The notes below the pieces were generated by a model. It did not search any database, was not told the DNA's origin, and saw nothing but the letters and a program-made list of their open reading frames with translations. The translations under genes were made by a program, and so were the position numbers. From a virus, in the IMG/VR virus record IMGVR_UViG_3300047319_000113, positions 1-25,982 of that record: DNA of 25,982 bases. One strand, written 5' to 3'. Positions 3,912-25,982 of this stretch are shown one piece after another. Within the stretch, counting starts at the first letter, position 1; each line of letters opens with the position of its first letter.

Positions 3912-3923
3912 TAGATAATCTCC

Positions 3924-6749: not shown

Positions 6750-8044
6750 ATGTATTGTCCTCCCGAAAATGCCACTCCCGCTACTGTACCGGGCAGATAC
6801 GACGCGCCTCGCGCTGCTGTATTGATAACGCCGTTACTCAACGCGACATATTTATAGCCGCTCAGATTTCCCGCTCCATTGATGGCATTCCAGAGCGGCC
6901 AGATTTGTCCGCCGTCCACCGCCTGCATGAAGGCGTAGTTCTGACTCGCGACTGAAATTGTTATGCTTGGGTTGGTCGGAGTCGAATTAAGAATTACGCC
7001 GTTGGTGAAGGCATAGTAGTGCGAACCACCGGCATAGGTGCCAACGATATTCTGATTACCATATGGCATGCAGCTAGAACTCGCACCCATGCAAACATGA
7101 TTTTGCGGTGCGTTACCAAAGTTCACAATTCCAAGAGTTAAATATCCGCCATTGAGCCACCAGAGACAATGACCTTGGTCGCCTGACTTTGGTGCCGATG
7201 CCGTAAGCTGCATTCCCTGAATGTCGTAGTTGCCGCCATGAAATGATGTGATTGTGCTGCCAGTGCCGCTATTTGTCACCACAACAGCAGCGGGGTTTGA
7301 GACGTTACCAATCAGCGCAACTATGCCGGAGCCGTTCGGGAGCGGCAGATCGATTGGATCAGGCGAGTAGTAACCGCCGTCCGCAATATGGATGATAAAA
7401 TTCCAGCCACCGAGATTATATTTCTTCATGGTGGTAAGAGCTTTCGGAATTGTCGCAAATGGCCCGGACGTTCCACTTATCGCCGCCGCCGTCCCGTCGT
7501 AGAGCGTGTCGCTTCCAATCCCGGAATTGACGTAAAGATTTTGCGTTGCCGTCATCGTTATGGCACCGGTAGAGATGCCACCTATGGCCTGAAAATGAAC
7601 GCCGTCATAGGCGACTTCGATCAGCTGTCCCGCCAGCATCTCGTACGCATTGAGCTGCGTTTGATCAGTATGAATGACAGGGACGTTGCCGAGTCCGCTG
7701 ACGTTGAGAACAACTTGACCCGTGTTACCGTATCTCACCTTGACGATGAAACGCTGGCCGAGCGCATACGCGGAAATAGGCTGCGTCGGAGTGATAGCCA
7801 TTTGGTTCGGGATGCCAGTATCAACTCCCCAATTAACCAAACCACCTTGTATCGCCCGTGAGAGCTGATACAAATCAGCATCGCTTGGAATCAAACCGCC
7901 ACGATTAATAAAATTGACAATCTCACGCTGCGGATATTCTATCGCAGCAGCAGGAGGGATTGAACCCATCGTGCCAGTCGAAGGGTTGCCATTGATATAA
8001 CCGGCGTTAGGGTCAGACACGCCGTAGGGCGCTTCATATTTCAC
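6746..8044 (-). CDS. Tail fibre or tail spike protein
   Basis: A 432-residue protein. The start is set at GTG 8044 because AAAAGGAG lies 7-8 bases upstream; the frame is open to 8110 but that part overlaps gp48. The N-terminal 140 residues (VKYEAPYGVSDPNAGYI, IVNFINRGGLIPSDADLYQL) look like a baseplate-attachment region. From about residue 180 the sequence is rich in Gly, Asn, Ser and Thr with recurring short beta strands, and DGTAAAISGTSGPFATIPKAL resembles the entry to the right-handed beta-helix of tail spikes. The C-terminus ends GVAFSGGQYI. It is the first gene after the baseplate set, the usual place for a fibre. Confidence 0.7.
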   Translation of the reverse strand: MKYEAPYGVSDPNAGYINGNPSTGTMGSIPPAAAIEYPQREIVNFINRGGLIPSDADLYQLSRAIQGGLVNWGVDTGIPNQMAITPTQPISAYALGQRFIVKVRYGNTGQVVLNVSGLGNVPVIHTDQTQLNAYEMLAGQLIEVAYDGVHFQAIGGISTGAITMTATQNLYVNSGIGSDTLYDGTAAAISGTSGPFATIPKALTTMKKYNLGGWNFIIHIADGGYYSPDPIDLPLPNGSGIVALIGNVSNPAAVVVTNSGTGSTITSFHGGNYDIQGMQLTASAPKSGDQGHCLWWLNGGYLTLGIVNFGNAPQNHVCMGASSSCMPYGNQNIVGTYAGGSHYYAFTNGVILNSTPTNPSITISVASQNYAFMQAVDGGQIWPLWNAINGAGNLSGYKYVALSNGVINTAARGASYLPGTVAGVAFSGGQYI

Positions 8045-8057
8045 TTGACGTCTCCTT

Positions 8058-8837
8058 TTAAGGTGTACCAGCCATTGGATCACCGGGATGATCCAAGCCT
8101 GCATAATCAAAGAGTATTGTTGTGTGAGCTGGCTTCCAACGATTTAGTAAGCATTCAAGATCATCTGCGATACCAATACGTAGGTGCGGATCAATACCAC
8201 ATTGTCCGCTTGCACAGCGAAACCAAATCAATGAGGCTCCACTAACATGTACCGTCCAGTAGAAACGATTTATGTCTGGACCAAGACCATAATATGGCCA
8301 CTCGCTTAACTCCCCATCCTTAACATAAGCATCACCAACTGCACCCATGATAGGGTTGCCCCATTCATTGCGCATCGGGTCTGGCGGCAAAAGACCATAT
8401 GTACGACAATCTCCGACACTGTCAATACCGACAACAAAGGTCCGATATTCCGTAATGGTAATTGTATAGCCAATCTGCGCGGCAACATCAATAAAGAACT
8501 CACGTGACTGCGCGCCTTGCATCGTCATGCGCATAACAAGCGCAAGCTGCCGTGCGTCTATTCCCTGCGGCGCTGTATAACAAGGATCGGGTAATCCCCA
8601 GTTACGTTCCCAATCCGGCAGCAGCTCTATCGTTGTGCGCGGATCACTTTCCCGTTCCAACAAGTCGGCTGCACGACCGTCAACAAATCCCCAGTACTCA
8701 CAAAGACCCGCAACCACTTTATAGAGCAAACTTTCCGGATGCCGTGGCCATGCCTGTCCTTGCGGGAGCAACGCCAGAAACGCTTGCTTATAATCATCGC
8801 CAGTACGACGTACGTGACGATCAATCTGATTACTCAT
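8058..8837 (-). CDS. Mu gp48-like baseplate protein (DUF2313)
   Basis: A 259-residue protein from ATG 8837, with GGAGACG upstream; it overlaps the J-like gene by 8 bases. It reads DDYKQAFLALLPQGQAWP, the hallmark near the N-terminus of the YmfQ/DUF2313 family, then ERESDPRTTIELLPDWERNW and GLPD, and RQLALVMRMT. A DPHLRIG segment and a C-terminal ECLLNRWKPAHTTILFDY complete the family pattern. In Mu this protein (gp48) joins the baseplate wedge to the tail fibre attachment. Two Cys pairs appear in the C-terminal half (FRCASGQCGID). Confidence 0.85.
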   Translation of the reverse strand: MSNQIDRHVRRTGDDYKQAFLALLPQGQAWPRHPESLLYKVVAGLCEYWGFVDGRAADLLERESDPRTTIELLPDWERNWGLPDPCYTAPQGIDARQLALVMRMTMQGAQSREFFIDVAAQIGYTITITEYRTFVVGIDSVGDCRTYGLLPPDPMRNEWGNPIMGAVGDAYVKDGELSEWPYYGLGPDINRFYWTVHVSGASLIWFRCASGQCGIDPHLRIGIADDLECLLNRWKPAHTTILFDYAGLDHPGDPMAGTP

Positions 8838-9903
8838 AAAGGATCGTCTCCAGCACCGCCATGTGTCCAAGCGACGGCATTACGTAGTCCACCGTCGTTA
8901 CTAATTCAAACGATTGCACGCTCGGCGCATTTAAAATTGCGTAGCTTATCCATGCCGCGTAAATCGTTTGTCCTGGAGCTGCCTTTGCAAATAGCATATC
9001 CTCGATGCTCTTTTCAATCTCAGCACGTGCGGCTTCGGTATCCGGCATCAAGTTTGCAATCGTGACGTCGATGAATTCCTTGATCGGTGCGAGCACGTAA
9101 CAATCCTTAACCGTAACAGGACGCATCTTATCGATGTAGGTTGCTACGATCTCAACGTCGGCAGGAGTTGGCCAGCCGTCATCAGCCGCACGCAGATCGT
9201 CCATTAAAAAACGTACAGTGATCGTGCCGGTACCTTGCTCTGGCGCTGCCCACGCACGCGTCACTCCAGGAACTGCCAGCGCCCACGTAACATAATCTGC
9301 TTGCGAACCACCCATCGCAGGATTACGAATACGCTGCAGGATACGTTGACGTAATTGATTATCAGTTTCATCATCAGTGCCGCCGGTTAATTCCACGACG
9401 GTAGCGGTACCGTCAACGCCAGCGGGTGTTGCCACGAAACTTAATTGTGCGCCTTCGTCCATATTACCGAGCGCGCCATAATCAATAGCAACGATACCAA
9501 CATTGACCGGTGACGCGCCTGTCGTCACGTCTTCTATTGTCTCGTAATTAATATTATTGTCGCTGATCAATTGCGTTCCAGCTGGCACGACAACACCGGG
9601 TGTGCCAGTAATTGCAATGGTACCCATAGCTGGAGTTGCAACCTTGCGCCCGATCGTTCCGTCAGCGTTTACTAACCAGATATCACCATGTCGATCTAGC
9701 CATTCATGTTCAGCAGTATCCGGTAGTAACTGCAGTGCTAACCAATCAAGGTAACGCAACGTCAGGTGCGCCAGTGCCGCCATGGCATCAGCCATCACCC
9801 GCAAGACGCTGTTGCCGACGAACGAAGCACGACCTAACGCAGTCGTTATCTCACCGCGAACCGTTTGCCGTACGACGCGTAACGTTGGGGTTGTCCAAGG
9901 CAT
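8830..9903 (-). CDS. Baseplate J-like wedge protein (Mu gp47)
   Basis: A 357-residue protein, a usual length for the Baseplate_J family (P2 gpJ, Mu gp47, T4 gp6-related). Hallmarks: the N-terminal MPWTTPTLRVVRQTVRGEI, LPDTAEHEWLDRHGDIW near residues 58-74, a PGVVVPAGTQLISDN loop, a GGTDDETDNQLRQRILQRI helix, then a VPGVTRAWAAPEQGTGTI segment. It forms the upper part of the baseplate wedge with gp46 and gp48. It begins 3 bases after the gp46-like stop. Confidence 0.92.
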   Translation of the reverse strand: MPWTTPTLRVVRQTVRGEITTALGRASFVGNSVLRVMADAMAALAHLTLRYLDWLALQLLPDTAEHEWLDRHGDIWLVNADGTIGRKVATPAMGTIAITGTPGVVVPAGTQLISDNNINYETIEDVTTGASPVNVGIVAIDYGALGNMDEGAQLSFVATPAGVDGTATVVELTGGTDDETDNQLRQRILQRIRNPAMGGSQADYVTWALAVPGVTRAWAAPEQGTGTITVRFLMDDLRAADDGWPTPADVEIVATYIDKMRPVTVKDCYVLAPIKEFIDVTIANLMPDTEAARAEIEKSIEDMLFAKAAPGQTIYAAWISYAILNAPSVQSFELVTTVDYVMPSLGHMAVLETILYE

Positions 9904-9906
9904 TAC

Positions 9907-10404
9907 TTAAACTTTCCTTATTCCATCCCACAGATTTTGAAAGCGTAAATCAATTAACATATTCGGACCGCGATAAACTTGTACCCACACGTCAATCTGT
10001 TCAACACCATTACGCATAGCCGTAACATCAATACGGCTGCAGATACGTTTATCAATCATCGGCTGCAAAGATGTTCTGCAGTATTGTTCTGCCCGTACAA
10101 CCGTTGCGCCTTCTTGCGCATCGATTGGAGTTATCTTAGCACGGCGCAATAGCCATATCTTCGAGCCAATCGGCCAACCGTCCCAGATCGTTTCTGCCTC
10201 TAGGTCTCCCCACCAGCCTTTACGATCTGAACTATCAGGATCAGGTAGCACGTCATTTAGATCGGCTAACGCACAAGTCAGTAACGTTACCTTAACGATA
10301 TTGACGAGCTCTTCAGTTTCATCCAACGTACCGTCTGGTTTCAAAAGCCAATCTGCCCAGATGCCTGTTAAATCTGTAACGTTGATGACGCGAATATCTG
10401 TCAT
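9907..10404 (-). CDS. Mu gp46-like baseplate protein
   Basis: A 165-residue protein whose pattern fits the GP46 family: a DWLLKPDGTLDETEEL start, then ALADLNDVLPDPDSSDRKGWWGD (residues about 46-68), the region IGSKIWLLRRAK, and a C-terminal DVWVQVYR strand. In Mu this small protein belongs to the baseplate wedge and is related in role to P2 gpW and T4 gp25. It overlaps the upstream gene by ATGA (10401-10404). Confidence 0.85.
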   Translation of the reverse strand: MTDIRVINVTDLTGIWADWLLKPDGTLDETEELVNIVKVTLLTCALADLNDVLPDPDSSDRKGWWGDLEAETIWDGWPIGSKIWLLRRAKITPIDAQEGATVVRAEQYCRTSLQPMIDKRICSRIDVTAMRNGVEQIDVWVQVYRGPNMLIDLRFQNLWDGIRKV

Positions 10405-11069
10405 GAACTTAACGCCACAATATCACGTTGCATGAAAGCCGGGTGCACGGTATTATTCTCAGCAATCAATTCGTCGCTACGCGATCCATCGCCATAGATG
10501 CGATTAGACAAAGTCAATGCCGGGTAATTAACTGCCCAATGATATTGAAGAACACGCGGTAGTTGCCGCTCGGTTGCAGACATATGTTGAATTAATAATG
10601 CTGCTAGCAAAACAAAACTTTGATAATCGCTAGACGTAAACGAGTCTGCCTTGTTAAGTTTTATATCATCGATAATTATATTCATCACATCCATTAACTC
10701 ATCAACTTCACTTCGGCTAGTAAATTCCATAACAGATATCACTTGACTTTGCTCAATAAACGAAAACAAAATACCAGCATTGACAATAACTAATCCTAAA
10801 TTATAAAGTGGCGCTTCAGCAAACAAAGAAAGACGAACTCGATCCATCGTATTAAGCGCAGCACCGGCTGCACGTGCCTGTTCAAAACAGGCAAACAATT
10901 CCGTACCAATAACTTTGTTATCAACCAGCGTGCCGAAGTCTACCATGAACCGCCCAACGGCAGTACGTAACTTAGCTGCATCAACGTTAGACGTAACCGG
11001 AAATAACAAGAGCTCGGTCATCATACGACCAGCGATTTCCTTAGCTTCTGTCAATTCAGATTTTTGCAT
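10401..11069 (-). CDS. DNA-circulation protein (Mu gpN), C-terminal part as separate gene
   Basis: A 222-residue, mostly helical protein. Its end reads LPRVLQYHWAVNYPALTLSN, then RIYGDGSRSDELIAENNTVHPAFM and DIVALSS. That block matches the C-terminus of Mu gpN-type proteins, where a YGDATRADELIARN-like segment is followed by HPGF and PLEVLS. The first half has no domain I can name. It starts one base inside the stop of the preceding gene (TAATG), which encodes the DNA_circ N-terminal domain. Together the two are about the length of one gpN. In known phages gpN is a baseplate/tail protein between tape measure and hub gp44. Confidence 0.65.
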   Translation of the reverse strand: MQKSELTEAKEIAGRMMTELLLFPVTSNVDAAKLRTAVGRFMVDFGTLVDNKVIGTELFACFEQARAAGAALNTMDRVRLSLFAEAPLYNLGLVIVNAGILFSFIEQSQVISVMEFTSRSEVDELMDVMNIIIDDIKLNKADSFTSSDYQSFVLLAALLIQHMSATERQLPRVLQYHWAVNYPALTLSNRIYGDGSRSDELIAENNTVHPAFMQRDIVALSS

Positions 11070-13863: not shown

Positions 13864-16002
13864 TCATTCGAAAGAGTATGTGTTGAACGCCGTCACGCCA
13901 CCACCAGCAACTGCAGCCTGTGGAGAACGCTTAATGTTCGTCGGGATAAATGGGCTAGCACCTTTTTCCCAAACGCTGCCCGGTTTATCCTTATCGCCAA
14001 AATTAATATCGACATTCGCAGTACCTACATTACCACCACTGCCAGCACGTAACGCATCATCAATCGTACCACGCGATAAGAATGGAATAGCTCTACCAGC
14101 TCCACTCCAGACACCCGTTCCTGCCGTTGCATCCGCTGCTCGCTGTCTTTCTGCCCATCGACGACCTGCCTCACCATGCGCAGAAAACCACGCGCCTTCA
14201 ACTTTATGCATCCCCCAATATTTAGGATTCGACATATACTTAGCGTAATTCGGATCACCTCGCATACCTTGGTCAGTTGCGTAATCAGTAATGTTTGATC
14301 CGGCATAAACTTTGGTAAGCGCGGCCTCTCCTTCTGCAGCTGTCTTTTGGGAAATATTGCCACTGATAAGATGCTTATTTACAGGACCATATTGTCCTGA
14401 ATGGAGTGCCTGATTTATTGTCATGTGGCGCATTGCTGCGTAGTTAAATAATTGCTCCAGATTGGATTGAATGCCACCTTCATGTTGCATCGCGTCAATG
14501 GCAAATCTTTTTAACTGCGGATTGCCTTCCAACTCTTTCTTGAACCCCGCGCGTTGATCGGCAAGGCTTCCACTCGGTCCACTGTCGCCAAGATCGCCAG
14601 TCGTCTCCGCTGGTCCACCACCACCCTTGCTCTGCGGAAACGACTGCCCAGCACCTGGACCGCTGCGTCCCATTGGATTAGCAACGCCTCCACTACCACC
14701 ACTACCACCAATTGCACCGCCACCACTTTTTTGCTGGTCCCACTTTTGAAACGTATCACGCATTTCGTGCAATAATTTATTTGAATCCTTATCTGTCTCA
14801 GCTGACTCCTGCACGAGTAACGAAGATCCAGGCTCAACTTCAGCTGCACCAGCCTCCATACTAAATTGCTTCCCGATCCAGTCCCATAAACCTCCAGCCT
14901 TGCCGCCTTCCGGTCCACCGGGCAATTGGCTGTTCATACTATCGATGATCGCGCGCTCGGTACGTATGCTGCCTAACGGTAACGTCTTATCCTTTTCGTC
15001 TTTCTGTTCACCTTCTTTCTTCTTGCCAGTCCACTTAGTAAGGAACGCATCGACTTCACCAAACGCTTTTACAACCCAATCAAATTCTTGTTTCGTTGTT
15101 GCTAGCGCGGGCATCACATACGTATTAAAGAAAGTTCTAAAATTATCTGCAAACGAATGCGCCTTTTCATTTAGACCGTCGATACCTTCCTTACCCATCA
15201 TCTTATTGATACCCTCGATCATCGTATACGCCATGTCGGTCCACAGGCTGGTACCGATAGTCTCGAGGTTCGTCATCGTCTTGTGATACTTCGCGGCCTC
15301 ACCTTCCTGAAATTTCCAGGGTTCAATCAACCCCTCCATTCCAACTTTACCAGCCTCGAACGCTGCACGCGATAAACCTGTAACAGTTGGCAACCACGCT
15401 TTGAACCGCTCACCACCATTATTATAAGCTTGTTGAAGAACGTTCAACGCCTCTTGCTGCTTACCGGCATTCATCAACTGACGAACTTGTTCAGCCAGCG
15501 CAGGACTGCTGGCCTGAAGTGATTTATAAAACGAAGACGTTTCTTGTAACGCCAACACTTCCTGTAACTTAGATCCGATACTCGCAATGCCACTAGACGC
15601 TTCGCTCGCATCAACTCCAGCAGCAGATAATTGCGTCCGTAAATTCTGAACGCTCTGAACCGTGAACCCGGTATTAGTAGCAAAGTTACGTAACTGCAAC
15701 TCACCAACCGCAAACGCATCTAGCGCCTTGGCAACTCCAGCAAAACCAACCGCAAGACCACCCGCGCCTAGTAGCGTCTTGGCTATTCCCGCCGCAGCTG
15801 CGTCCATCGCCTTTATCGGACCGCGCGTATAATGCTCAACGACCTTACCGAACCGCTCGAACTCATCCGCAAGATTGCTGCCACTTTTGCTGCCAGCATC
15901 ATTGAGGCTACTAATTTTAAGTTTTAAATTATCGACTTCTTTTCCGAGCTGCTGGAAGAATGCCAGCATCTGATCTGCATCGAAATTATTCTGCTGCGGC
16001 AT
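13864..16002 (-). CDS. Second tape-measure-like protein with lysozyme-like C-terminal domain
   Basis: A 712-residue protein, paralogous to the preceding gene. Residues 1-300 align almost without gaps, with shared blocks LSAAGVDASEA, LALQETSSFYK (150-160), QLMNAGKQQEA, GERFKAWLPTVTG and GLNEKAHSFADNF. A hydrophobic segment lies at about 71-98. Residues 424-480 are a Gly/Ser/Pro linker. The C-terminal part (about 485-625) reads FAIDAMQHEGGIQSNLEQLF, HSGQYGPVNK, ATDQGMRGDPNY and GAWFSAHGEAGRRW, like a muramidase or transglycosylase domain; Glu508 is a candidate acid. Similar domains end tape measures of rhizobial phages, as I recall. It starts in the stop of its paralogue (TAATG). Confidence 0.7.
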   Translation of the reverse strand: MPQQNNFDADQMLAFFQQLGKEVDNLKLKISSLNDAGSKSGSNLADEFERFGKVVEHYTRGPIKAMDAAAAGIAKTLLGAGGLAVGFAGVAKALDAFAVGELQLRNFATNTGFTVQSVQNLRTQLSAAGVDASEASSGIASIGSKLQEVLALQETSSFYKSLQASSPALAEQVRQLMNAGKQQEALNVLQQAYNNGGERFKAWLPTVTGLSRAAFEAGKVGMEGLIEPWKFQEGEAAKYHKTMTNLETIGTSLWTDMAYTMIEGINKMMGKEGIDGLNEKAHSFADNFRTFFNTYVMPALATTKQEFDWVVKAFGEVDAFLTKWTGKKKEGEQKDEKDKTLPLGSIRTERAIIDSMNSQLPGGPEGGKAGGLWDWIGKQFSMEAGAAEVEPGSSLLVQESAETDKDSNKLLHEMRDTFQKWDQQKSGGGAIGGSGGSGGVANPMGRSGPGAGQSFPQSKGGGGPAETTGDLGDSGPSGSLADQRAGFKKELEGNPQLKRFAIDAMQHEGGIQSNLEQLFNYAAMRHMTINQALHSGQYGPVNKHLISGNISQKTAAEGEAALTKVYAGSNITDYATDQGMRGDPNYAKYMSNPKYWGMHKVEGAWFSAHGEAGRRWAERQRAADATAGTGVWSGAGRAIPFLSRGTIDDALRAGSGGNVGTANVDINFGDKDKPGSVWEKGASPFIPTNIKRSPQAAVAGGGVTAFNTYSFE

Positions 16003-17960
16003 TATTCGTACGCAAGCTGGTTGGACTTGTTAAGTTTCAACGTGTTAAATACTCCACCCATTTCCGCGTTGGCCTTCACACCTTCTGGCACGTTATTTAA
16101 ATTAACATTAAGCTGCGCATTCCACGGACTACCTGAATTCTTCGCTCCCAATGCGTTATCAATTTTTGTTCTATCCTGCTGCTGCGCTTGCACCGCATCG
16201 ACCGCAGTCTTACCTGCAAACCGCGTATCCATATCCGTAAGCTTACGTCGCCGTGCGCCGTACTGGTCTGCGAATATTGCCGTGCCATCTTTCTCGTTAT
16301 ACGATCCCGGCACGATCGTCATAACGTGACCGCCAGTTTGACCAGGAGCTAATACCTGACCTTGCGTACCGCCATAACGTCCATGGAAATAAGTACTGAC
16401 CATACTTCCGAACGGATGATTAGGCGCGTTGATATCGTTAGGATCTAATTTCTCACCCCACTTATGCCACGACGTTGCGATCGCTGCACCCGTGGGAGGC
16501 TTATACCCGGCAGATTTTACGTACCCAGAAGCAACCATACCGCAAGCCGGTCCGGACATTCGATAACCGCGCTGGCTAAATAATTTCTGTAACCCCGCAA
16601 CGTCACCCGCACGACCTAATATCTCTGCCTGACGCATCGTATCAGGATCGATCTTCTTGCCGCCTTCGTCGTTCAAACCAGCGGGACCACCGGGACTAGC
16701 TGTAGAGCTCCCACCGCCTCCACCGCCTCCACCGCCTCCACCGCCTCCACCGATCGCACCAACTCCACCATTAACTTGATCGTCCCACTTTTGAATAATA
16801 TCGCGCATATCCTGCAACGATTTATTTGAATCCTTTTGTACAACTATAATTGAATTCTGATCAACGCCTGACTTAGCTGAAGCATCACCAACCCCAAGTT
16901 GCTTCTTCATCCAATCCCACGAACTAAAATTTTTATCCTTCTCATCTTCATTTTGACGGCGAATAAATTCTTCAGGTCGTAACCGAAAACCCTGACCAGG
17001 ATCACGTGTCTGTGCCTGTTTGTTAAACCAATCAATAATATCCTTGGCTTCCTGAAACGTCTCCTTTAAAGTTGGGATGACACTGTTGTCAAACCACGTT
17101 TTAAAATTATCAGCAAACTTGTGCGCCTTCTCGTTCAACCCCTCGAGACCTTCACTCCCTGTTAATTTAACGATACCTTCTAAAACAGTATTCGTTACCG
17201 AATTCCACACACCATCAAAAATCGTACCTAGATTAACCATCGTCTTATGATACTTCGCAGCATCGCCATCAAGCTCCTTCCAAGGCATTATCAAACCTTC
17301 CATACCTTGTGCTTGCGCCTCCCACGCAGCTCTCGATATCCCTGTGACCGTTGGCAACCACGCTTTAAATCTTTCGCCACCTTTATTAAATTTCTCCTGA
17401 AGATAATTCATCGCCTCCTGCTGCTTACCAGCATTCATTAACTGGCGAACGTTTTCCGCCATTGCCGGTTCACTAGCTTGCAGCGCCTTATAAAATGAAG
17501 ACGTTTCTTGCAAGGCAAGAACGTCCTGTAACTTAGCTCCGATACTCCCGATCCCCTGCGCCGCTTCGTTTGCATCGATACCAGCAGCAGAAAGCTGCAC
17601 TCGCATTTTCTTCAAACCATCTGTAGAAAAGCCGGTATTAATCGCAAAGTTTCTAGTATGTAATGCGCTAACCGCAAAGTGATCGAGCGCCTTGCCAACA
17701 CCACCGATGACCAACGCAAGCTTAGCGACACCTCCAGCCGAACCAATGAGCCCGGATATGCCTGACTCCATTCCACGCAATGCGCCTTGCGTGTGTCGCT
17801 GAATAGTCTGACCAAACTTTTCAGTATGATCAGTCATTTTCTTCATCGCATTGCCAGCTTCGTTAAGGCTGACAATCTTGGTCTTAAAGTTATCTATCTC
17901 CTTTCCCATCTGGCCGAAGAAAGCCAACATGGCATCGGAATCAAAATCCATGTCAGGCAT
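16002..17960 (-). CDS. First tape-measure-like protein with Cys-peptidase-like C-terminal domain
   Basis: A 652-residue protein directly after the tail assembly chaperone, the canonical tape-measure position. Residues 1-300 are helical with a hydrophobic stretch at about 66-96 and the blocks shared with its neighbour. Residues 404-417 are an uninterrupted poly-Gly run. The C-terminal part (about 460-575) reads YRMSGPACGMVASGYVKSAG, then PPTGAAIATSWHKWGEKL, GGHVMTIV and ADQYG. Cys473, His545 and Asp565 could form the active site of a papain-like/NlpC-P60-type peptidoglycan hydrolase (TIGR02594-like pattern). It is short for a tape measure, about 100 nm at 0.15 nm per residue if fully helical. 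Confidence 0.75.
   Translation of the reverse strand: MPDMDFDSDAMLAFFGQMGKEIDNFKTKIVSLNEAGNAMKKMTDHTEKFGQTIQRHTQGALRGMESGISGLIGSAGGVAKLALVIGGVGKALDHFAVSALHTRNFAINTGFSTDGLKKMRVQLSAAGIDANEAAQGIGSIGAKLQDVLALQETSSFYKALQASEPAMAENVRQLMNAGKQQEAMNYLQEKFNKGGERFKAWLPTVTGISRAAWEAQAQGMEGLIMPWKELDGDAAKYHKTMVNLGTIFDGVWNSVTNTVLEGIVKLTGSEGLEGLNEKAHKFADNFKTWFDNSVIPTLKETFQEAKDIIDWFNKQAQTRDPGQGFRLRPEEFIRRQNEDEKDKNFSSWDWMKKQLGVGDASAKSGVDQNSIIVVQKDSNKSLQDMRDIIQKWDDQVNGGVGAIGGGGGGGGGGGGGGSSTASPGGPAGLNDEGGKKIDPDTMRQAEILGRAGDVAGLQKLFSQRGYRMSGPACGMVASGYVKSAGYKPPTGAAIATSWHKWGEKLDPNDINAPNHPFGSMVSTYFHGRYGGTQGQVLAPGQTGGHVMTIVPGSYNEKDGTAIFADQYGARRRKLTDMDTRFAGKTAVDAVQAQQQDRTKIDNALGAKNSGSPWNAQLNVNLNNVPEGVKANAEMGGVFNTLKLNKSNQLAYE
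16714..16749 (-). repeat. Nine-base tandem repeat encoding poly-Gly
   Basis: Four perfect copies of CCGCCTCCA on the + strand, each encoding three Gly residues on the coding strand; flanking Gly codons extend the run to 14. Slippage by whole units would keep the frame and only change linker length between the tail body and the peptidase-like domain. Confidence 0.8.
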
Positions 17961-18935: not shown

Positions 18936-20450
18936 TTAAGTCGCAACAACGGTATCCACACCGCGATCGTATTGCAGTCTGAACTGCGCAAGGACCGCAA
19001 ACACCCTAAGCTGGTTCACAAGATCTGGTGGATATAAACAATTGACACGGTTGGGATCGTTAGGATCACGCTCAACGATCAAATTAGTTTTGAACGCTGC
19101 ACCATTCTCAACCAGTCCATTGAATTCATCAATGCGATACTGCGCTACCAATTCCGCCTTGATAATCTTCGGAGTGACGATCGCCTGACCAACACCAAAA
19201 CGTGTACCATCATCTGCGAGTTTATGTCTTGGGAATTTACTGGTGATTGCCTGTCGCTGATTGCGCAGCAACTTAGCAAGCGTCGCCAGCGTTGTCACGA
19301 GCTCGTACGCGTCGTCACTATTGCCGTACAAGTTCTTCTGGTACGTAGTATTCTCCCGCATAATCATCGGCACGTCTACTGCCGTACGCTGCGTTGCTAG
19401 CCCAGCGTAAGCAAAAGCGTTGAGCTCCGACATAATGAATCGCGTATGGAACGGCGCGGGTAAACAACTCGCCAACGACAAAGTCTGCAACGGTCGTGCT
19501 GGATCATTGATCAATGCACGCGCGGCCTTTGCTGTATACGCTGCCGCCCATTCATAACTTGGCGTAGGCGCACTCGGCTCAATCGCTAGTATAGACATCT
19601 GTGCACTGTTGCGCGTCTCTCCGAACAAAAGCAGGTTCGTATAAGTCTCGCGCTTTGCGTTGAACAAATGCCCATAATGTTGCCGCATCCATCCCCAGCG
19701 ACCGGTATCGGAAAATCCAAATTCAGTTTCCCATGCCAGCATAGAAGTCGAGTCCGTATACGGCATACACACGTAATCAATTTCCGTTTCACCGAGTGCA
19801 CTAATGGCATTAGTGAATACTGGCACACCAGTACCGCCTGTGAACGGTGCATACGTCAACGTCAATCCAACTGGTAATTGTTCACCACCGATCGTACCAT
19901 AGTAGCTATCAGACACCTGGATTTCATCACCCTGTGTGCCTTTGAACTTAGACGTAAGTGTAACGACACCTGCAGCAGCCGTAGCAGTTACTGGCAAATC
20001 CTTATTGGCATTGATCGCCGTATCAATAGAGGTAGCGACAATGGCAACCGTATCTGTTGCGCCTACGTAGACCGGTACATTCTGTCCAGCGATGTAAAGA
20101 CTAATCGTCCCGGCTTGTGTTGGTGCCGTCGCAACCGTGATGGTACCTGTTGCCGCTGCACCAGTCGGATCGGCAACCGGCAAACCCCACACTTCATTTG
20201 CCCAATTGTTGGCGAAGAACACTCTAAACATATTCGCCAGCATCGAACCTTGACCGAAGAAATGATCTGCATCAGCTTGTGACGGGACCGCGATAGGTAC
20301 ATCAGGTGGTACGGTGCCAGTCGATAGCATCGAACCAACTAGTAATGACCGTCCAGGTGTCTGTCCTAAGCCAGCCATCGAAGGATCTAATTCGACCCAG
20401 TAAAGTGGCATTCGCCAATTAGCCGGGATATTATTAAACGAGATAGGCAT
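18936..20450 (-). CDS. Contractile tail sheath protein (Mu gpL-like)
   Basis: A 504-residue protein (505 if ATG 20453 is used; AGGAGAGG favours the second ATG). It follows the Mu sheath family: MPISFNNIPANWRMPLYWVE, then GRSLLVGSML, SQADADHFFGQGSMLANMFR, and VWGLPVADPTGAAATGTI. A surface beta domain covers about 100-210. DYVCMPYTDSTSML leads into the subtilisin-like core, and the C-terminal domain runs from VDVPMIMRENTTYQKNLYG to the end, with FNGLVENGAAFKTNLIVERD. It forms the contractile outer tail. Confidence 0.93.
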   Translation of the reverse strand: MPISFNNIPANWRMPLYWVELDPSMAGLGQTPGRSLLVGSMLSTGTVPPDVPIAVPSQADADHFFGQGSMLANMFRVFFANNWANEVWGLPVADPTGAAATGTITVATAPTQAGTISLYIAGQNVPVYVGATDTVAIVATSIDTAINANKDLPVTATAAAGVVTLTSKFKGTQGDEIQVSDSYYGTIGGEQLPVGLTLTYAPFTGGTGVPVFTNAISALGETEIDYVCMPYTDSTSMLAWETEFGFSDTGRWGWMRQHYGHLFNAKRETYTNLLLFGETRNSAQMSILAIEPSAPTPSYEWAAAYTAKAARALINDPARPLQTLSLASCLPAPFHTRFIMSELNAFAYAGLATQRTAVDVPMIMRENTTYQKNLYGNSDDAYELVTTLATLAKLLRNQRQAITSKFPRHKLADDGTRFGVGQAIVTPKIIKAELVAQYRIDEFNGLVENGAAFKTNLIVERDPNDPNRVNCLYPPDLVNQLRVFAVLAQFRLQYDRGVDTVVAT

Positions 20451-20476
20451 CATGCCTCTCCTATGGGTTGACGAAT

Positions 20477-20680: not shown

Positions 20681-21278
20681 CTTCTTTCTCCTTTTCTGTA
20701 GGCAACAACCAATCAGCAACGACCTGCTGAACTTGCGTTGTATCGTTCTTACTCGGATCTGGATAATTCGTTGTGAAGTGTACGTGACTCAACACGTTAT
20801 CCACAACCGGCGGGAAGTCAATCACGCCAAGATCACACAATAATGTGAACCGGCTTTCCGCAACCGGGATCGCATTATCTGCACCTGCTGAACCAAATTG
20901 GTGCGTGCGATTGCCGCGCGTATAACCCTGGATCTTGGCCTTAGGATTTAAGTACAAACTCGGATCAGTGAATAACCGGTCCATAACCAGCGTCCAACCT
21001 TCATCCAACGTTAACTCGGCTGCAGCTGCATCGTTGTTCTGCACAACGATTGAAAATCCATAGAGCGCAGACGAATGAAAGCGCGGCTCACCCGCGTTCG
21101 AGTCACCTTCTGGCAACAGATCTTCACTGATAAAATAAACCCCAAGAAACGGCACCAGCTCCGGTTGAATTTGTTCAGCCTTGTTGGTACCAAATTTAAA
21201 CGTCGAGAAAAATGGCATCGTTTTTAAACGTGCCAGCATTTCGTCACGAACGATCATAGCATAACTGGTTGCGGTCAT
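20658..21278 (-). CDS. Tail terminator / tail completion candidate
   Basis: A 206-residue protein that overlaps the head-closure gene by 4 bases (ATGA). It has an N-terminal helix, YAMIVRDEMLARLKTMPFF, then VPFLGVYFISEDLLPEGDSN with AGEPRF, a long beta region (ALYGFSIVVQNND), LTLDEGWTLVMDRLF, and a variable charged C-terminus. The order (helix, beta strand naming a value, AGEPRF, then a helix with W) matches small proteins that cap the tail tube at the neck (lambda gpU/Mu gp37-type position). Family assignment rests mainly on place and pattern. Confidence 0.6.
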   Translation of the reverse strand: MTATSYAMIVRDEMLARLKTMPFFSTFKFGTNKAEQIQPELVPFLGVYFISEDLLPEGDSNAGEPRFHSSALYGFSIVVQNNDAAAAELTLDEGWTLVMDRLFTDPSLYLNPKAKIQGYTRGNRTHQFGSAGADNAIPVAESRFTLLCDLGVIDFPPVVDNVLSHVHFTTNYPDPSKNDTTQVQQVVADWLLPTEKEKEDASKSKE

Positions 21279-21634
21279 GGCTTACTCTGCACGATGTGAC
21301 GTAACGTTAACGTTGTTTCGCCACCGCCATTTGGCTGCGTATCGATCACCTCGAATTGACCTTCAGCGGGCAAGCCTCCGGCAGTCGGGATATCGACCAA
21401 GTCACCTTGCAGCGGCAACGTCGTGAATTCCGCTTCACGAATATCCAGGATCACGCGCGTTTCAGAAATGATCGAACCATCCAACGCTGCCACCTCCATG
21501 GCTTCGATATCCAAGATCCCGCGCGTTACGTACGGCTGCCCAGACGACTGGCTCGCCTTCGGTGTAATCGTCACCGGACGTCCATACGTATCCTGGTTCT
21601 GCGCATAAACTTGTTCAGAGAAATTGACGACCAT
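21275..21634 (-). CDS. Small neck protein, head-closure candidate
   Basis: A 119-residue protein from ATG 21634, preceded by AGGAATAAATAAC; the frame is open to 21850, but that part lies in antiphase to a well-supported gene. It is mostly beta: VYAQNQDTYGRPVTITPKAS, VTRGILDIEAMEVAAL, VILDIREAEFTTLPLQGD, and a last strand, ETTLTLRHIVQ. The VDIP...GQFEVIDTQPNGGGETTL block is like small phage head-closure or stopper proteins (Mu-like and lambda FII-type sizes). A role as stopper between connector and tail terminator fits its place. Confidence 0.55.
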   Translation of the reverse strand: MVVNFSEQVYAQNQDTYGRPVTITPKASQSSGQPYVTRGILDIEAMEVAALDGSIISETRVILDIREAEFTTLPLQGDLVDIPTAGGLPAEGQFEVIDTQPNGGGETTLTLRHIVQSKP

Positions 21635-21635
21635 G

Positions 21636-22211
21636 TTATTTATTCCTGAACATACGTTTGGCTGCTTTACGTCCACGCAACCGTGCTTGTCTACGTAACC
21701 TGCGACGACGTAACGTCCTGCGGCCAATCGTCTTGCCTTTATACTGCAGCTGCGTTGCGATGTACGGTAAGCGACCCGGTACCCACTTGCCCACAACGTC
21801 GCGCGGTTGCGATCGCCAATCATGCCGCCAATGATTATCCAACCAATCATTGCGCGACGTTGCCCAATTGCTGCGACCCCACGCAGTCTTAGCGCGCCAG
21901 TTGCCGCGCTGCTTTTTACCTAAGAATTCTTTCCGCAAGCCGCTTAAGAAATTACTATCGACACGCAATTCCCTCGGCATCAAATCGCTTATCGCCAACG
22001 GCTTCGGTAGCAAGTCAGAAAGATTAAGCGTCTTCGGCATCAAGATATTTGCCGCGCCACCCAGACTAAGTGGACCGAAACTTATTTGTTGCAGAAGAAA
22101 CTCGCCACCCATATTGACGAGTTTATCCATCACCGCTTTCTCAAGTCCGCCACCCGTCACCAAAGCCGCAACCATCTTTGCGATCTGGCCGGTGCCAAAA
22201 CCTGCTGCCAT
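21636..22211 (-). CDS. Basic Trp/Arg-rich protein in the neck gene block
   Basis: A 191-residue protein I do not recognise. Residues 1-90 are mildly hydrophobic (MAAGFGTGQIAKMVAALVTG, LSDLLPKPLAISDLMPREL). Residues about 100-145 hold seven Trp among Arg, Asn and Asp. The last 35 residues are almost all Arg, Lys, Leu and Ala, for example RRTLRRRRLRRQARLRGRK. It lies between connector and head-closure genes, where HK97 gp10-like or minor head proteins are often found; the first 60 residues could be a remnant of such a fold, but that is weak. The basic tail suggests contact with DNA or with negatively charged portal surfaces. Confidence 0.6.
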   Translation of the reverse strand: MAAGFGTGQIAKMVAALVTGGGLEKAVMDKLVNMGGEFLLQQISFGPLSLGGAANILMPKTLNLSDLLPKPLAISDLMPRELRVDSNFLSGLRKEFLGKKQRGNWRAKTAWGRSNWATSRNDWLDNHWRHDWRSQPRDVVGKWVPGRLPYIATQLQYKGKTIGRRTLRRRRLRRQARLRGRKAAKRMFRNK

Positions 22212-22213
22212 GA

Positions 22214-22849
22214 TTAGGCTGTCAGCCTCGTATACCGTTGCAACAAATTGCGCGCAGCGTTCTCAGCTGGCGACCCGCCACCCCCGCTAGAGCTCGACGA
22301 CGATCCTCCCATCTTGGATGGATCGAAATATGAAATGCGGCTTTCCTTGTGCGAGATTTGCCGTACCGAAGCGTCCCCGCGCTGGCTAGAATAATATGAG
22401 TCGCGCGTGAACAACAGCACCGCTTGTTTAATCGCTGGTGGTACCTCCTGCGGAATTGCGTAACCTCCCGCGTAAGTTGCTACCACCGACTCCGGCCATT
22501 GCGCACCACCGAACAAAGAAAGTTTACCTGATTCCGGATCGATATCAAATTCTGAAACGGTACCATCGACCGCGATCGACTCAATGTCGTCAAGCTGCAC
22601 CGGGTACCGTGAAAGGTAAAGCCGAGTGATCGGTTGTTCAATCTCGCGGAAAGTTTCGATCACGGCTTCCTTGGGAAACACCCGGCTGCACAACGTCTGC
22701 ACCTCGTCGGACGATCGCAGGATTATGAACTTCAACAGCTCGTCGCTATCAGTACTCGACGGCGCGATCTTCAGCGCTACCTTAGCTTCGTAAAGCGTGA
22801 TGAGTGCCTTATCCGGAGCTGGCTTTGTAACGACGACGCTAGAGTGCAT
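22214..22849 (-). CDS. Head-tail connector protein (gp6-like)
   Basis: A 211-residue protein: ITLYEAKVALKIAPSSTDSD, then LLKFIILRSSDEVQTLCSRV, a FPKEAVIETFREI strand, LYLSRYPVQLDDIESI with VAVDG-like turn (AVDGTVSEFDID), a WPESVVATYAGGYAIPQEVP loop, then an AIKQAVLLFTRDSYYSSQRG helix. This order (two helices, beta strands around YP, YxxGY/GGY, P-P-A-I-K helix) is the HK97 gp6/SPP1 gp15 connector pattern. It has a Ser/Gly-rich insert near the end. It docks on the portal. Its start overlaps the collagen-like gene's stop (TAATG). Confidence 0.8.
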   Translation of the reverse strand: MHSSVVVTKPAPDKALITLYEAKVALKIAPSSTDSDELLKFIILRSSDEVQTLCSRVFPKEAVIETFREIEQPITRLYLSRYPVQLDDIESIAVDGTVSEFDIDPESGKLSLFGGAQWPESVVATYAGGYAIPQEVPPAIKQAVLLFTRDSYYSSQRGDASVRQISHKESRISYFDPSKMGGSSSSSSGGGGSPAENAARNLLQRYTRLTA

Positions 22850-23856
22850 TACGCAGTCTCCTCTTGAAACTGCTCGAACAGATTACGCAACGAGATGACG
22901 GGACCACGTTCACCGTCAGACATAATCGGCGAAACCTCATACGTCTCGCGATTAATCTCCCACGTAACAATTTCGATCGTGTCCCCGCGATCGCCTTTTA
23001 ATCCACGTTCGCCTTGTGGTCCCGGCTTACCAGTCTTGCCAATTCCAGGACCAGATTTCCAACCGGGTCCAGGACATGGACCAGGTTTATCGTGCTTAGC
23101 GACAAACCATTTACTATCGAGCGTCACAACGTCCAATTCAGAATATTCTTCGGTAGGATCAAACGTCTCCCGAATGTTCATAGAGATACCGTCTTCACCA
23201 TGACGACCATCTTTACCGTTCACGCCCGGTGCCGCCAAGCAGATCCAATCATTCGTTCCCGGGATTTTGCCAGTGTCCTTCAACGCCTGATAAAGTCCAC
23301 CGCCATGCGCAACTACTTCACCTTCGTATTGAACCGAACCTTCGACCCATTGTTTTACTTTGGGTAGCTTGCCCGGTTGACCTTGCGCGCCTTGTTCACC
23401 ACGTTCGCCTTTCTCGCCATTAACGCCGTCCTTACCCGGTGCACCATCTGCACCACGCTCTCCCTTCTCTCCCGGCAACCCTTGCAACCCTTGCTCACCG
23501 GCAGGACCAACCAGTCCTTGTAATCCATCTTTGCCATCCAAACCATCTTCGCCGTTAGTACCATCAACGCCGTCTTCACCATTACGCAACGATGCGACCT
23601 TATCATTTATGATTTGGTCCCATTGCGTAATTCTACCGGCAACGGCACCCTCTAATAATTTCTGTAGCCGCTCCAGCTGCAATTCTTTTTCTGCAAAACG
23701 TCGTTCGATATCCGCAGCGAGTGCGGCAATCCTGAACGCTGCTTCGCGCTCGACACGTCCTGCAACCGCACCTAATTCTGCTGCCAACAATTCAAATGGA
23801 GAGGTGGCGGTCATGCGAGGATCTGAAGAGGGAAGTGAGTTTGGATCTGTCAGCAT
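22849..23856 (-). CDS. Collagen-like fibre protein next to the portal
   Basis: A 335-residue protein. AAAGG about eight bases before ATG 23856 supports that start, though MTATSPF at residue 15 would cut the 65-base overlap with the portal. Residues 17-90 form a long charged helix, probably a trimeric coiled coil. Residues 93-162 are Gly-X-Y repeats rich in GEKGERG and GKDG. Residues 170-210 read WVEGSVQYEGEVVAHGG, GLYQALKDTGKIPG and DWICLA, like a small chitin-binding type-3/carbohydrate-binding module; a looser copy (TEEYSELDVVTLDSKWFVAK) covers 230-270. A short collagen run (269-292) and a beta/helical end follow. It looks like a neck or head fibre. Confidence 0.75.
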   Translation of the reverse strand: MLTDPNSLPSSDPRMTATSPFELLAAELGAVAGRVEREAAFRIAALAADIERRFAEKELQLERLQKLLEGAVAGRITQWDQIINDKVASLRNGEDGVDGTNGEDGLDGKDGLQGLVGPAGEQGLQGLPGEKGERGADGAPGKDGVNGEKGERGEQGAQGQPGKLPKVKQWVEGSVQYEGEVVAHGGGLYQALKDTGKIPGTNDWICLAAPGVNGKDGRHGEDGISMNIRETFDPTEEYSELDVVTLDSKWFVAKHDKPGPCPGPGWKSGPGIGKTGKPGPQGERGLKGDRGDTIEIVTWEINRETYEVSPIMSDGERGPVISLRNLFEQFQEETA

Positions 23857-25189
23857 CGGTTATGCCTTTGGGTTCACTTGGCTGCGGAGGTTTTAAATCC
23901 GCTGCCGGTGCTGGCGGTGGCGCACCCGGTGCTGGGGATGCTGGGATCTTACCCGCCGCGCTCAATGGAACGACCTGCTGCTGTACGCGCGGTTCGTCAC
24001 CAAACTTGACTTGTTCCATATCGAACGCAGCACGCGCCTCGTTAGGAGAATGAATGCCGCCTTGAACCGAGCGCACGTAACCCTCAACACGATCCTTAAA
24101 CGCCGATCGTAAGAGCGCAGACGTATCGAATTCAAGGTACTCATCTGGAACGCCGTCGAGAGAAAAGAAACGTCCCATCGCTTCCTCAATATGATTTAGA
24201 CAAAAGCCTAGACCCGTTGAGATCCACATCTGCATTAAGGCTTCGGTCGATCCGATCGGTCCGCCACCGATGCCAAACATTTGTAACGGAATACGATACG
24301 CCAGCGCGATCCTCGCATCGGAAATTTTCATAACGTCTGCTAATTGCGAATCAACGGAATTGGTAGAAAGTTGAAACGGTTTCAATCCGGCCGACAAAAT
24401 CGGCGTGCCGCCAACCCCGACACCTTTAGATTGCTCGTCCCATTTCTGCCGGAGCATATCCGTCTGATCTTTATCCAGCCGCAGATCGGTGGACAGCACA
24501 TGGCTCGGTCGAGCCTGGTTCATATAGAATTTAATTTGCTGGTTTGCGATCGCATCGGTTAGAGCCATGTCGCGCAGAATTGCCAGCAGCGGAGACATTC
24601 CGCGCAACATGTACGGCTCCTGGTTCATCCGGATATGCAGAACATCGCGTGCGGGTACTAACTCCATTTCTGGCAGCATGCGATCGATAACAGGATTACC
24701 ACCAAGTCCGTAAAAGACTTCGCCGTCATCCGCAACGTACGGCATGCACTGGCTAGGTTCCATCAAATGCAGCGAGTCAATTTCGTAACGGGAATTGCGC
24801 AGCGCCAGCGCGTACGTGTTACCATCCGCGTAGAGCGAACGAACGGCGTTCAGCATGAAATCAGAAATAGTTTGGTAGTCATTTGGGTAACGAAGAAACC
24901 GCGCTAAGTCTGAAGTCATAACGCGATCGCGGCCACCTTTGTCATCGGAAAGCCAGTGATCGCCTGGACACATCGCGGTAGTCTGGCTGTAAGAATTAAT
25001 ACACGCGTCCACCATCGCAGACGGAGAAAATCTTTGGATGCTGCCACCATTCTGCCACCAATTGTCAGAACTGTCCGCCGGTAGCCACCCGCCGCTAACC
25101 GGCAAGATCCACGGTCCAGGACGGTAGTTTCCCTCTGCCGCTTTCACAAGCGTGTGGCCGATGCGCGCAACAATTTCTCTAAGCGCCAT
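23792..25189 (-). CDS. Portal protein (HK97-like)
   Basis: A 465-residue protein of normal length for the Phage_portal family. Features in order: an N-terminal arm with WW (44-45), DACINSYSQTTAM (61-73), the stem-region LHIRMNQEPYMLRGMSPL (184-201), AIANQQIKFYMNQARPSHVL (214-233), GGTPILSAGLKPFQL, the block FGIGGGPIGSTEALMQMW (305-322) where YG..n.s..e is usual, and a Pro/Ala-rich C-terminus (416-440). It forms the dodecameric ring through which DNA is packaged and ejected. A terminase-capsid block would normally lie around it; it is not in this window. Confidence 0.92.
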   Translation of the reverse strand: MALREIVARIGHTLVKAAEGNYRPGPWILPVSGGWLPADSSDNWWQNGGSIQRFSPSAMVDACINSYSQTTAMCPGDHWLSDDKGGRDRVMTSDLARFLRYPNDYQTISDFMLNAVRSLYADGNTYALALRNSRYEIDSLHLMEPSQCMPYVADDGEVFYGLGGNPVIDRMLPEMELVPARDVLHIRMNQEPYMLRGMSPLLAILRDMALTDAIANQQIKFYMNQARPSHVLSTDLRLDKDQTDMLRQKWDEQSKGVGVGGTPILSAGLKPFQLSTNSVDSQLADVMKISDARIALAYRIPLQMFGIGGGPIGSTEALMQMWISTGLGFCLNHIEEAMGRFFSLDGVPDEYLEFDTSALLRSAFKDRVEGYVRSVQGGIHSPNEARAAFDMEQVKFGDEPRVQQQVVPLSAAGKIPASPAPGAPPPAPAADLKPPQPSEPKGITDADRSKLTSLFRSSHDRHLSI

Positions 25190-25333: not shown

Positions 25334-25657
25334 CTACTTATTAACCGCACGAGTTTCGTAAGTGCCGCGCTGTGCCGGTTTTGCTTCCACCTGTTTAGTC
25401 TGACCCGGTACCGGCTCAGGTCCGCTACCATCGTCTTCCTTTTCCATGACGTTGCATCCCATCACCGCAAGATCATTTTCTTCCTGCGTCGGGGTTGGCG
25501 TGGAAGCCTGTACGCCTTCCTTGGCGCTGACCTTACTAGCCTCTTCGCGCGCCTTGCGTTCTTCGCCAAGCTTCTTCTTGGCTTCCTCCGCGCGCTTCTT
25601 TTCGTCTTCGGTACGTTTGGCCGCAGCCGCGTCGGCCTTCGCTTCATGGTCAGTCAT
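25334..25657 (-). CDS. Charged helical protein upstream of the portal
   Basis: A 107-residue protein with AAGGAG before ATG 25657. Residues 1-48 are almost purely Ala, Lys, Glu and Arg (AKADAAAAKRTEDEKKRAEE), a likely long single helix or coiled coil. The second half is Pro/Thr/Gln-rich and probably disordered, with QASTPTPTQEEND and PVPGQTKQVEAKP. No family is recognised. A capsid scaffold-like or morphogenesis helper role would fit composition and place, but similar charged proteins have many jobs, so this is only a suggestion. Confidence 0.55.
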   Translation of the reverse strand: MTDHEAKADAAAAKRTEDEKKRAEEAKKKLGEERKAREEASKVSAKEGVQASTPTPTQEENDLAVMGCNVMEKEDDGSGPEPVPGQTKQVEAKPAQRGTYETRAVNK

Positions 25658-25668
25658 CTGACTGCTCC

Positions 25669-25982
25669 TTATGTTGGCTCTGGGAAATTTAACATTCCCC
25701 GATGTGAACGCGCAACTTCATCATAAGATCTAGCTGCCTCTTCTTCGGTGTCGAATAAACCCAGATACCGTACACCTTTACCTACGATGTGAATACGGGC
25801 TCTCCAACCTTTGCCACCCCAAAAATCAACGCCGCGAAATTTACTCTTTCCCATCGCACGACGATTGAGATTTTGTAAGCTAGCATCAGCACTCCATTCG
25901 ACATTCTCAGAAGTATAATTACCATCGTTGTCAATACGTGTAAGTTCGTGCTTTAAGCTCGGACGCACACCCATGTCAGCGA
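25669..25982 (-). CDS. HNH-type homing endonuclease, C-terminal part with AP2 domain (cut by window edge)
   Basis: The frame is open to the right edge; the codons before ATG 25974 read Ala-Asp, so the true start lies outside. The visible first part, ADMGVRPSLKHELTRIDNDG followed by NYTSENVEWSA, is the end of the HNH family often written MGPRPSPKHSLDRIDNDGNY. The last 57 residues form an AP2 DNA-binding domain: SKFRGVDFWGGKGWRARIHI, YLGLFDTEEEAARSYDEVAR and GMLNFPEP. HNH-AP2 proteins are mobile site-specific endonucleases common in phages. It stands just before the portal-linked genes and its stop overlaps the next ribosome-binding site, so it is read with them. Confidence 0.85.
   Translation of the reverse strand, partial: ADMGVRPSLKHELTRIDNDGNYTSENVEWSADASLQNLNRRAMGKSKFRGVDFWGGKGWRARIHIVGKGVRYLGLFDTEEEAARSYDEVARSHRGMLNFPEPT

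Follow-up and report, generated by a model that had tools for sequence, protein, structure and literature searches.

The nearest solved relatives of the module pair described here are the N-termini of two trimeric fibres of Agrobacterium phages, the tail spike gp124 of Milano (PDB 8fqc) and the long tail fibre gp015 of 7-7-1 (9rkv). In Milano, the N-terminal region of the tail spike is the tail-binding module, of which the loops VPPGTP and RTDLPPGPFDPANWQ are in contact with proline-rich parts of the baseplate proteins (PMC10811340), and residues 1-120 of the 7-7-1 fibre have been assigned to baseplate anchoring (PMC12796354). Fibrous appendages of the head and neck include SPP1 gp12, a capsid decoration protein predicted to be collagen-like and trimeric, with a role in host adhesion (PMC7602432), and the neck fibre of A-1(L), the single one of which a distal carbohydrate module has been assayed; this module did not bind host cells (PMC10966104).

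The window analysed here is the whole of a 25,982-base virus record, from a soil phage, in which the gene for a 335-aa collagen-stalked protein lies between those for the portal and the head-tail connector (Table 1). The protein has the same tandem pair of modules as the two Agrobacterium phage fibres. In Milano and 7-7-1 the pair is N-terminal and docks onto baseplate proteins, whereas in the window protein it is C-terminal to a collagen stalk and is encoded within a head/portal cluster. SPP1 gp12 is likewise collagen-like and encoded in a head-gene region; it binds capsomers, and is presumably short and without modules. The neck fibres of A-1(L) (gp82/81/80), for which no collagen is reported, T4 (fibritin) and XM1 (gp40) are like the window protein in proposed location and general shape, and no sequence relationship between it and any of them was found. 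Our preferred reading, which we would give about an even chance of being correct, is that the protein is a homotrimeric fibre of the head/portal module, and that in finished virions it most likely occupies the portal/neck vertex.

Table 1. Features of the collagen-stalked protein and of neighbouring genes in the window.
Feature	Coordinates	Strand	Evidence
Whole CDS, collagen-stalked portal-adjacent protein, 335 aa	22849..23856	minus	ORF; dN/dS about 0.1-0.16
Predicted N-terminal helix, residues 20-91	23584..23799	minus	AlphaFold2 single helix, pLDDT 95-99 over most; mean column identity 31% (alignment A9)
Collagen stalk 1, 24 Gly-X-Y triplets, residues 93-164	23365..23580	minus	PF01391 E 2.8e-14; length differs among relatives
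Module 1, CBM5/12-like, without chitin-binding aromatic pair, residues 165-210	23227..23364	minus	PF02839 in 44/46 relatives; Foldseek 2d49
Collagen link 2, 5 triplets, residues 211-225	23182..23226	minus	Missing from some relatives
Module 2, CBM5/12-like, kept where module 1 is lost, residues 226-271	23044..23181	minus	hhalign to module 1 94%, E 8.8e-8
Collagen link 3, 7 triplets, residues 273-293	22978..23040	minus	Gly-X-Y triplets in sequence
Predicted C-terminal cap, beta-beta-alpha, residues 294-335	22852..22977	minus	AlphaFold2 pLDDT above 90; invariant I/W/PIM/G/LR-LF positions (alignment A3)
Portal protein, HK97 type, directly upstream, 65-base overlap	23792..25189	minus	PF04860 E 2.4e-58
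Head-tail connector, directly downstream	22214..22849	minus	phrog_442 E 1.2e-15; PF05135 E 0.0023, below its cut-off
Head closure protein Hc1	21275..21850	minus	PF05354 E 6.5e-8; phrog_82
Tail sheath	18936..20453	minus	phrog_165 E 2.5e-169

Position of the gene in the head cluster

The open reading frame occupies exactly 22849-23856 of the minus strand, as the initial annotation had it, and it does encode collagen, which is the single meaningful Pfam match of the product (a match to DUF7423 at E 0.16 is not meaningful). Its stop codon has one base in common with the start codon of the connector gene, and it also overlaps the end of the portal frame. A codon comparison with six relatives gives the overall dN/dS listed in Table 1, which indicates purifying selection and therefore that the gene is real. 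The earlier observation on this frame is thus partly confirmed, with the corrections that follow.

An identical protein is encoded by a 51.6 kb contig, L002, which reveals the genes beyond the window end. There, protease and capsid are fused in a single gene, which lies upstream of the portal (L002:1616-3709; PF04586, PF05065). The order fused protease-capsid, portal, collagen gene, connector is normal for this head type, and the suggestion that the collagen gene is wedged where protease and capsid genes belong does not hold, since the fused gene upstream rules out their displacement.

The conservation of this order was surveyed with the portal as query, to avoid the bias of searching with the collagen protein itself. 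The gene follows the portal in 29/29 close relatives retrieved in this way, in 67/68 wider relatives and in 76/76 of a second, divergent group, these sets being overlapping, limited to contigs with enough downstream sequence and drawn from the best-scoring 80 of about 600 portals. Within the second group 75 are directly adjacent to the portal and one is at +921; within the 68, the match in L207 is about 2.8 kb downstream and the sole exception is L222, discussed below. Across the related contigs that include the portal region the gene is at or just past the portal end, the outlier being a Devosia prophage (L039) in which it is about 1.8 kb downstream.

Relatives of the first group have tail sheath and tube genes, the sheath being present in six of the 18 records searched, all six of this group. 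From its own sheath gene, the window phage has a contractile tail. There is no sheath gene in the second group, even in records of 51 kb and 44 kb; these phages have a tail tube of the lambda or TP901 type, along with HK97 gp10 and genes for head completion. Because adjacency to the portal persists with a sheath or with lambda/TP901-type tails, the protein is associated with the head rather than the tail. A tail-fibre reading is ruled out on the same grounds, since a change of tail type does not part the gene from the portal, and also because the window has tail-fibre genes elsewhere, at 2664-5798. The proposal of a fibre-like protein tied to the head and neck genes is therefore supported by portal adjacency across tail types, together with the variable stalk and the sugar-binding fold described below.

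Since the gene is tied to the portal, the likeliest site of such a fibre would be the portal/neck vertex, although gene order does not prove location. The main external alternative to this vertex is capsid decoration of the SPP1 gp12 type, in which trimers would sit on capsomers and project from the whole head rather than from the neck. The precedent of gp12 itself, a collagen-like protein with an adhesion role, argues for this, as does the fact that the gene travels with the fused protease-capsid gene as well as with the portal gene. However, the gene is found between portal and connector and not beside the capsid gene, and the presumed shortness of gp12 and its lack of modules also count against a capsid-surface fibre, which we regard as unlikely.

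Three further features of the head region were seen. The capsid gene and a small gene are separated by an inserted HNH/AP2-type homing endonuclease gene, which is truncated at the window end (25669-25980), encodes 156 aa in L002 (3718-4188), is present in L005 and L007, and was not found in L004 or L011. A protein of 107 aa, rich in lysine and glutamate and with a conserved PTPTQEEND motif (25334-25657, minus strand), is encoded immediately before the portal gene, as it is in many relatives. A protein with a strongly basic C-terminus (21636-22211, minus strand), which has no family match, overlaps the head-closure frame in another frame and is conserved in many contractile relatives.

Helix, collagen stalk and cap

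The N-terminal helix, predicted to be 72 residues long, is the least conserved part of the family (alignment A9). It had been described as a trimeric coiled coil. A long helix is indeed predicted, at a pLDDT of about 97, but its heptad-like hydrophobic periodicity is not significant, being matched by about 10% of shuffles, which counts against the preferred fibre, and it is from the collagen that trimerization would follow. The Gly-X-Y run amounts to 24+5+7 triplets. Matches through this repeat to Legionella Lcl, streptococcal Scl and tail-fibre PHROGs are composition-driven and were ignored, and records matching through collagen only (L013-L020, L034-L036, L095-L096) were excluded. For the conserved core, structure was predicted with 46 aligned relatives as input (alignment A4), giving a mean pLDDT of 84; the low pTM of this model is expected, since collagen, modelled as a monomer, links its domains.

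Among 118 non-identical sequences, some of them cut by contig ends, the collagen stalk ranges from 0 to about 219 triplets with a median of 26, and the longest would measure about 188 nm at 0.286 nm per residue. In the siphophage and gammaproteobacterial relatives the stalk is partly or wholly made up of helical DG-SVT-DDV repeats, and several members mix both types; the window protein has collagen and does not have the helical repeats. That the stalk may be absent, collagenous or helical and varies in length, while the C-terminal core is conserved, suggests that it is the spacer of a projecting trimeric fibre. Such variability is as expected of a projecting spacer and counts in favour of the fibre.

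Two modules with a CBM5/12 fold

The stalk is followed by two modules of about 46 residues each, both of which fold confidently in the AlphaFold2 model (pLDDT about 90) into the compact all-beta CBM5/12 fold. Foldseek aligns them with the chitin-binding domain of ChiC (2d49) at 2.2 A rmsd over 47 columns and with the cellulose-binding domain of EGZ (1aiw) at 1.3 A over 37 columns. At the sequence level PF02839 (CBM_5_12) matches 44 of the 46 family members, with a best E of 2.4e-8; its gathering score is exceeded by L070, L066 and L082, and the window copy, with E 0.16 alone, is below it. Ankyrin repeats, retrieved from the PDB with an invented module 1 consensus as query, were false matches and were discarded.

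The comparison with CBM5/12 therefore found the likeness of fold that had been anticipated for this region. The initial annotation had further distinguished one good module from one degenerate one. The first is indeed CBM5/12-like, but the second is not degenerate, as it is homologous to the first and equally conserved, with invariant residues of its own (Y238, V244, F251, A253, P258, P262, G263, W266). About 20 relatives that have lost module 1 retain module 2, and the supposedly degenerate module is therefore the more essential one. One cysteine in each module, C206 and C261, is conserved in 36/46 and 45/46 relatives respectively (alignment A4), and these are possible disulfide or cross-link sites.

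Fold and core sequence are held in common with ChiC and EGZ; the ligand-binding aromatic pair is not. In chitinase modules from the same bacterial order (L309, L310, L313) the corresponding motif is Y-x-A-x-W-W-T, the W-W pair being what we take, from ChiC, to be the chitin-binding surface. This pair is absent from all 46 aligned relatives, in which the motif is Y/F/W-Q-A-x-(K/R/C/Q)-D-(T/N/S), with mostly K/R-D in place of the aromatics. For the pair of modules as a whole, the matches to Milano 8fqc and 7-7-1 9rkv have profile E values of 0.021 and 0.0028 and Foldseek E values of 2.6e-4 and 1.7e-5, respectively, and the Milano loops VPPGTP and RTDLPPGPFDPANWQ align with KDTGKIPGTNDW and KHDKPGPCPGPGWK of the window protein. 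The modules can be considered relatives of CBM5/12 by their predicted fold, with a putative capacity for carbohydrate binding. Glycan binding is nevertheless unproven, because the aromatic pair is missing and because the nearest solved homologues use the pair of modules for docking within the virion. For the same reason, the absence of the aromatics, a lectin by homology alone is ruled out, and CBM5/12-like matches in phage fibres need not imply sugar binding.

It had been proposed that the protein touches host polysaccharide, which beyond the fold is unsupported. As a neck adhesin the protein would use the two modules as lectins for rhizobial surface polysaccharide. The fold and the family HMM would fit this, as would the placing of the modules at the distal end of a long stalk. 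Cellular hosts belong to the Rhizobiales (Bradyrhizobium, Pseudolabrys, Devosia), with the family present in 14/196 genomes of a sample of the genus Bradyrhizobium and in 3/397 of a sample of the order, the former frequency also being in keeping with an adhesin. Against it are the replacement of the aromatics in every member, the purifying selection on the modules and the failure of the A-1(L) neck-fibre module to bind host cells, so that adhesion to polysaccharide seems quite improbable. In the preferred reading of a head-linked fibre, the primary contact of the pair may instead be with protein, in a docking or bracing role, as the pair lacks the chitin-binding aromatics and resembles the docking pair of Milano and 7-7-1.

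Cultured relatives and the anchored end

The cultured phages with the best-matching portals are PAJU2, FSL SP-016 and JLK-2012, in which the slot after the portal is taken by proteins of 334-407 aa with the same kind of terminal module (ORF007, SP016_00155 and PP_58, respectively). Rhizobium phage RHph_X2_26 has a 473-aa protein in this slot. All four are matched by the core HMM at E 1e-10 to 1e-7; tblastn of the window modules against cultured phages gave no match, and the modules of a divergent member were needed. These phages share with the window phage the order terminase, fused protease-capsid, small ORF, portal, slot gene, connector, as well as the CBM5/12-like module or modules near the C-terminus of the slot protein, and the same gene order is present in IME307 and the PPompW and PPyecE phages. 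They differ in that the stalk is mostly of helical repeats, P-x-P-x-DG-K-S-V-T-x-D-D-V, rather than long collagen, in lacking the collagen link and the C-terminal cap, and in having gammaproteobacterial or rhizobial hosts and siphophage-type tail genes.

The slot proteins of the cultured relatives are annotated as "hypothetical" or as "portal protein", a label that is probably wrong for the portal-adjacent gene. PHROG 1289, which is matched by 32/46 members (best E 5e-8), and the second half of PHROG 2271 correspond to the portal-adjacent protein, though labelled portal. That phrog_1289 is a fusion of portal and module is ruled out by the locus, which shows a gene after the portal. The "portal protein" name is also on the portal-adjacent gene in LC567822, LC567835, MN096267 and MW960037. 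In contractile phages this widespread, misannotated, head-linked family takes a collagen form that represents a new variant; the family is near-universal in a large HK97-like phage clade of Proteobacteria that includes enterobacterial lambdoid prophages.

In L222, the exception noted above, the gene after the portal (L222:4029-4427) encodes 132 aa with the same N-terminal helix and no collagen or modules, ending in PSKVLRIERDENGALVPIYDEPQP. This is a natural loss of stalk and modules, which suggests that the helical part is separable and virion-linked. L222 would argue for anchoring by the helix and the Milano precedent for anchoring by the modules. In Milano and 7-7-1 the modules are close to the N-terminus and to the virion, but in the window protein they are at the end of the stalk far from the helix; the latter counts against the fibre as preferred here.

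A further consideration is the occurrence of frames that join portal and fibre, which also speaks for the fibre as part of the head/portal module. In L231 a 655-codon open frame from position 1338 onward includes the portal together with a fibre that has module 2 only; this is present in one contig, and is possibly a natural fusion or else a single-base error. The 778-aa "portal protein B" of ON470625 (L316, positions 7501-9837) covers the portal and the downstream protein, and at its junction a G run is one G longer than in the unfused PPyecE_EH1910; it may be an artefact, slippage or a fusion, and is given little weight. The two are also joined in phrog_2271. The C-terminus of a portal normally faces the capsid lumen, and if the fusions are real the N-terminus of the fibre would be at the portal C-terminus, pointing inwards, which counts against the preferred reading.

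This would place the protein inside the capsid, tethered to the portal, or make of it a portal-vertex assembly factor, the helix joining the lumenal portal C-terminus and the modules holding proline-rich portal tails. Many portals of the clade do have a proline-rich C-terminal tail, for which no claim as ligand is made here, and the homologous Milano loops contact proline-rich stretches; nor is there any sign of diversifying selection in the dN/dS comparison. However, in the siphophage group the portal tails have less proline and are often acidic, an error in the homopolymer may account for the ON470625 fusion, and the longest stalks, at about 188 nm, could not be accommodated straight in the head. 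We know of no collagen inside phage heads, and an internal location is, on balance, rather unlikely.

In the external fibre that we prefer, an N-terminal helical bundle would be followed by a collagen triple helix that varies freely in length and carries the two CBM5/12-fold modules and the small beta-beta-alpha cap. The fibre would be anchored by one end, with the other end projecting and possibly tethering the host surface. A literature search found no virion proteomics or imaging for any member of the family; in a paper that mentions PAJU2 the protein is not among the virion proteins detected, its phage not being shown to carry the gene (PMC4936722). Candidate prophages are available in bacterial strains such as Bradyrhizobium sp. 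BRP22 (L038). Should the protein prove to be a fibre of the virion, it would be a second appendage, at the head end, independent of tail type and with a spacer of evolvable length. A more specific version, which we consider doubtful, would be a portal-anchored collagen fibre, perhaps as four trimers on the 12-fold vertex, with a reach of anything from none to nearly 190 nm, depending on stalk length, and with CBM5/12 modules turned from sugar to protein docking, a universal appendage of this head clade across contractile and non-contractile phages that has been overlooked as "portal protein".

Elsewhere in the window, tandem tape-measure-like paralogues (13864-16002 and 16002-17960, minus strand) are 48% identical over 477 N-terminal residues (E 4e-127); their C-terminal halves differ, and neither has a Pfam match. 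A tRNA-Gln reported by ARAGORN at 10823-10917 (minus strand) is inside the same-strand open reading frame 10401-11069 and is probably a false call.
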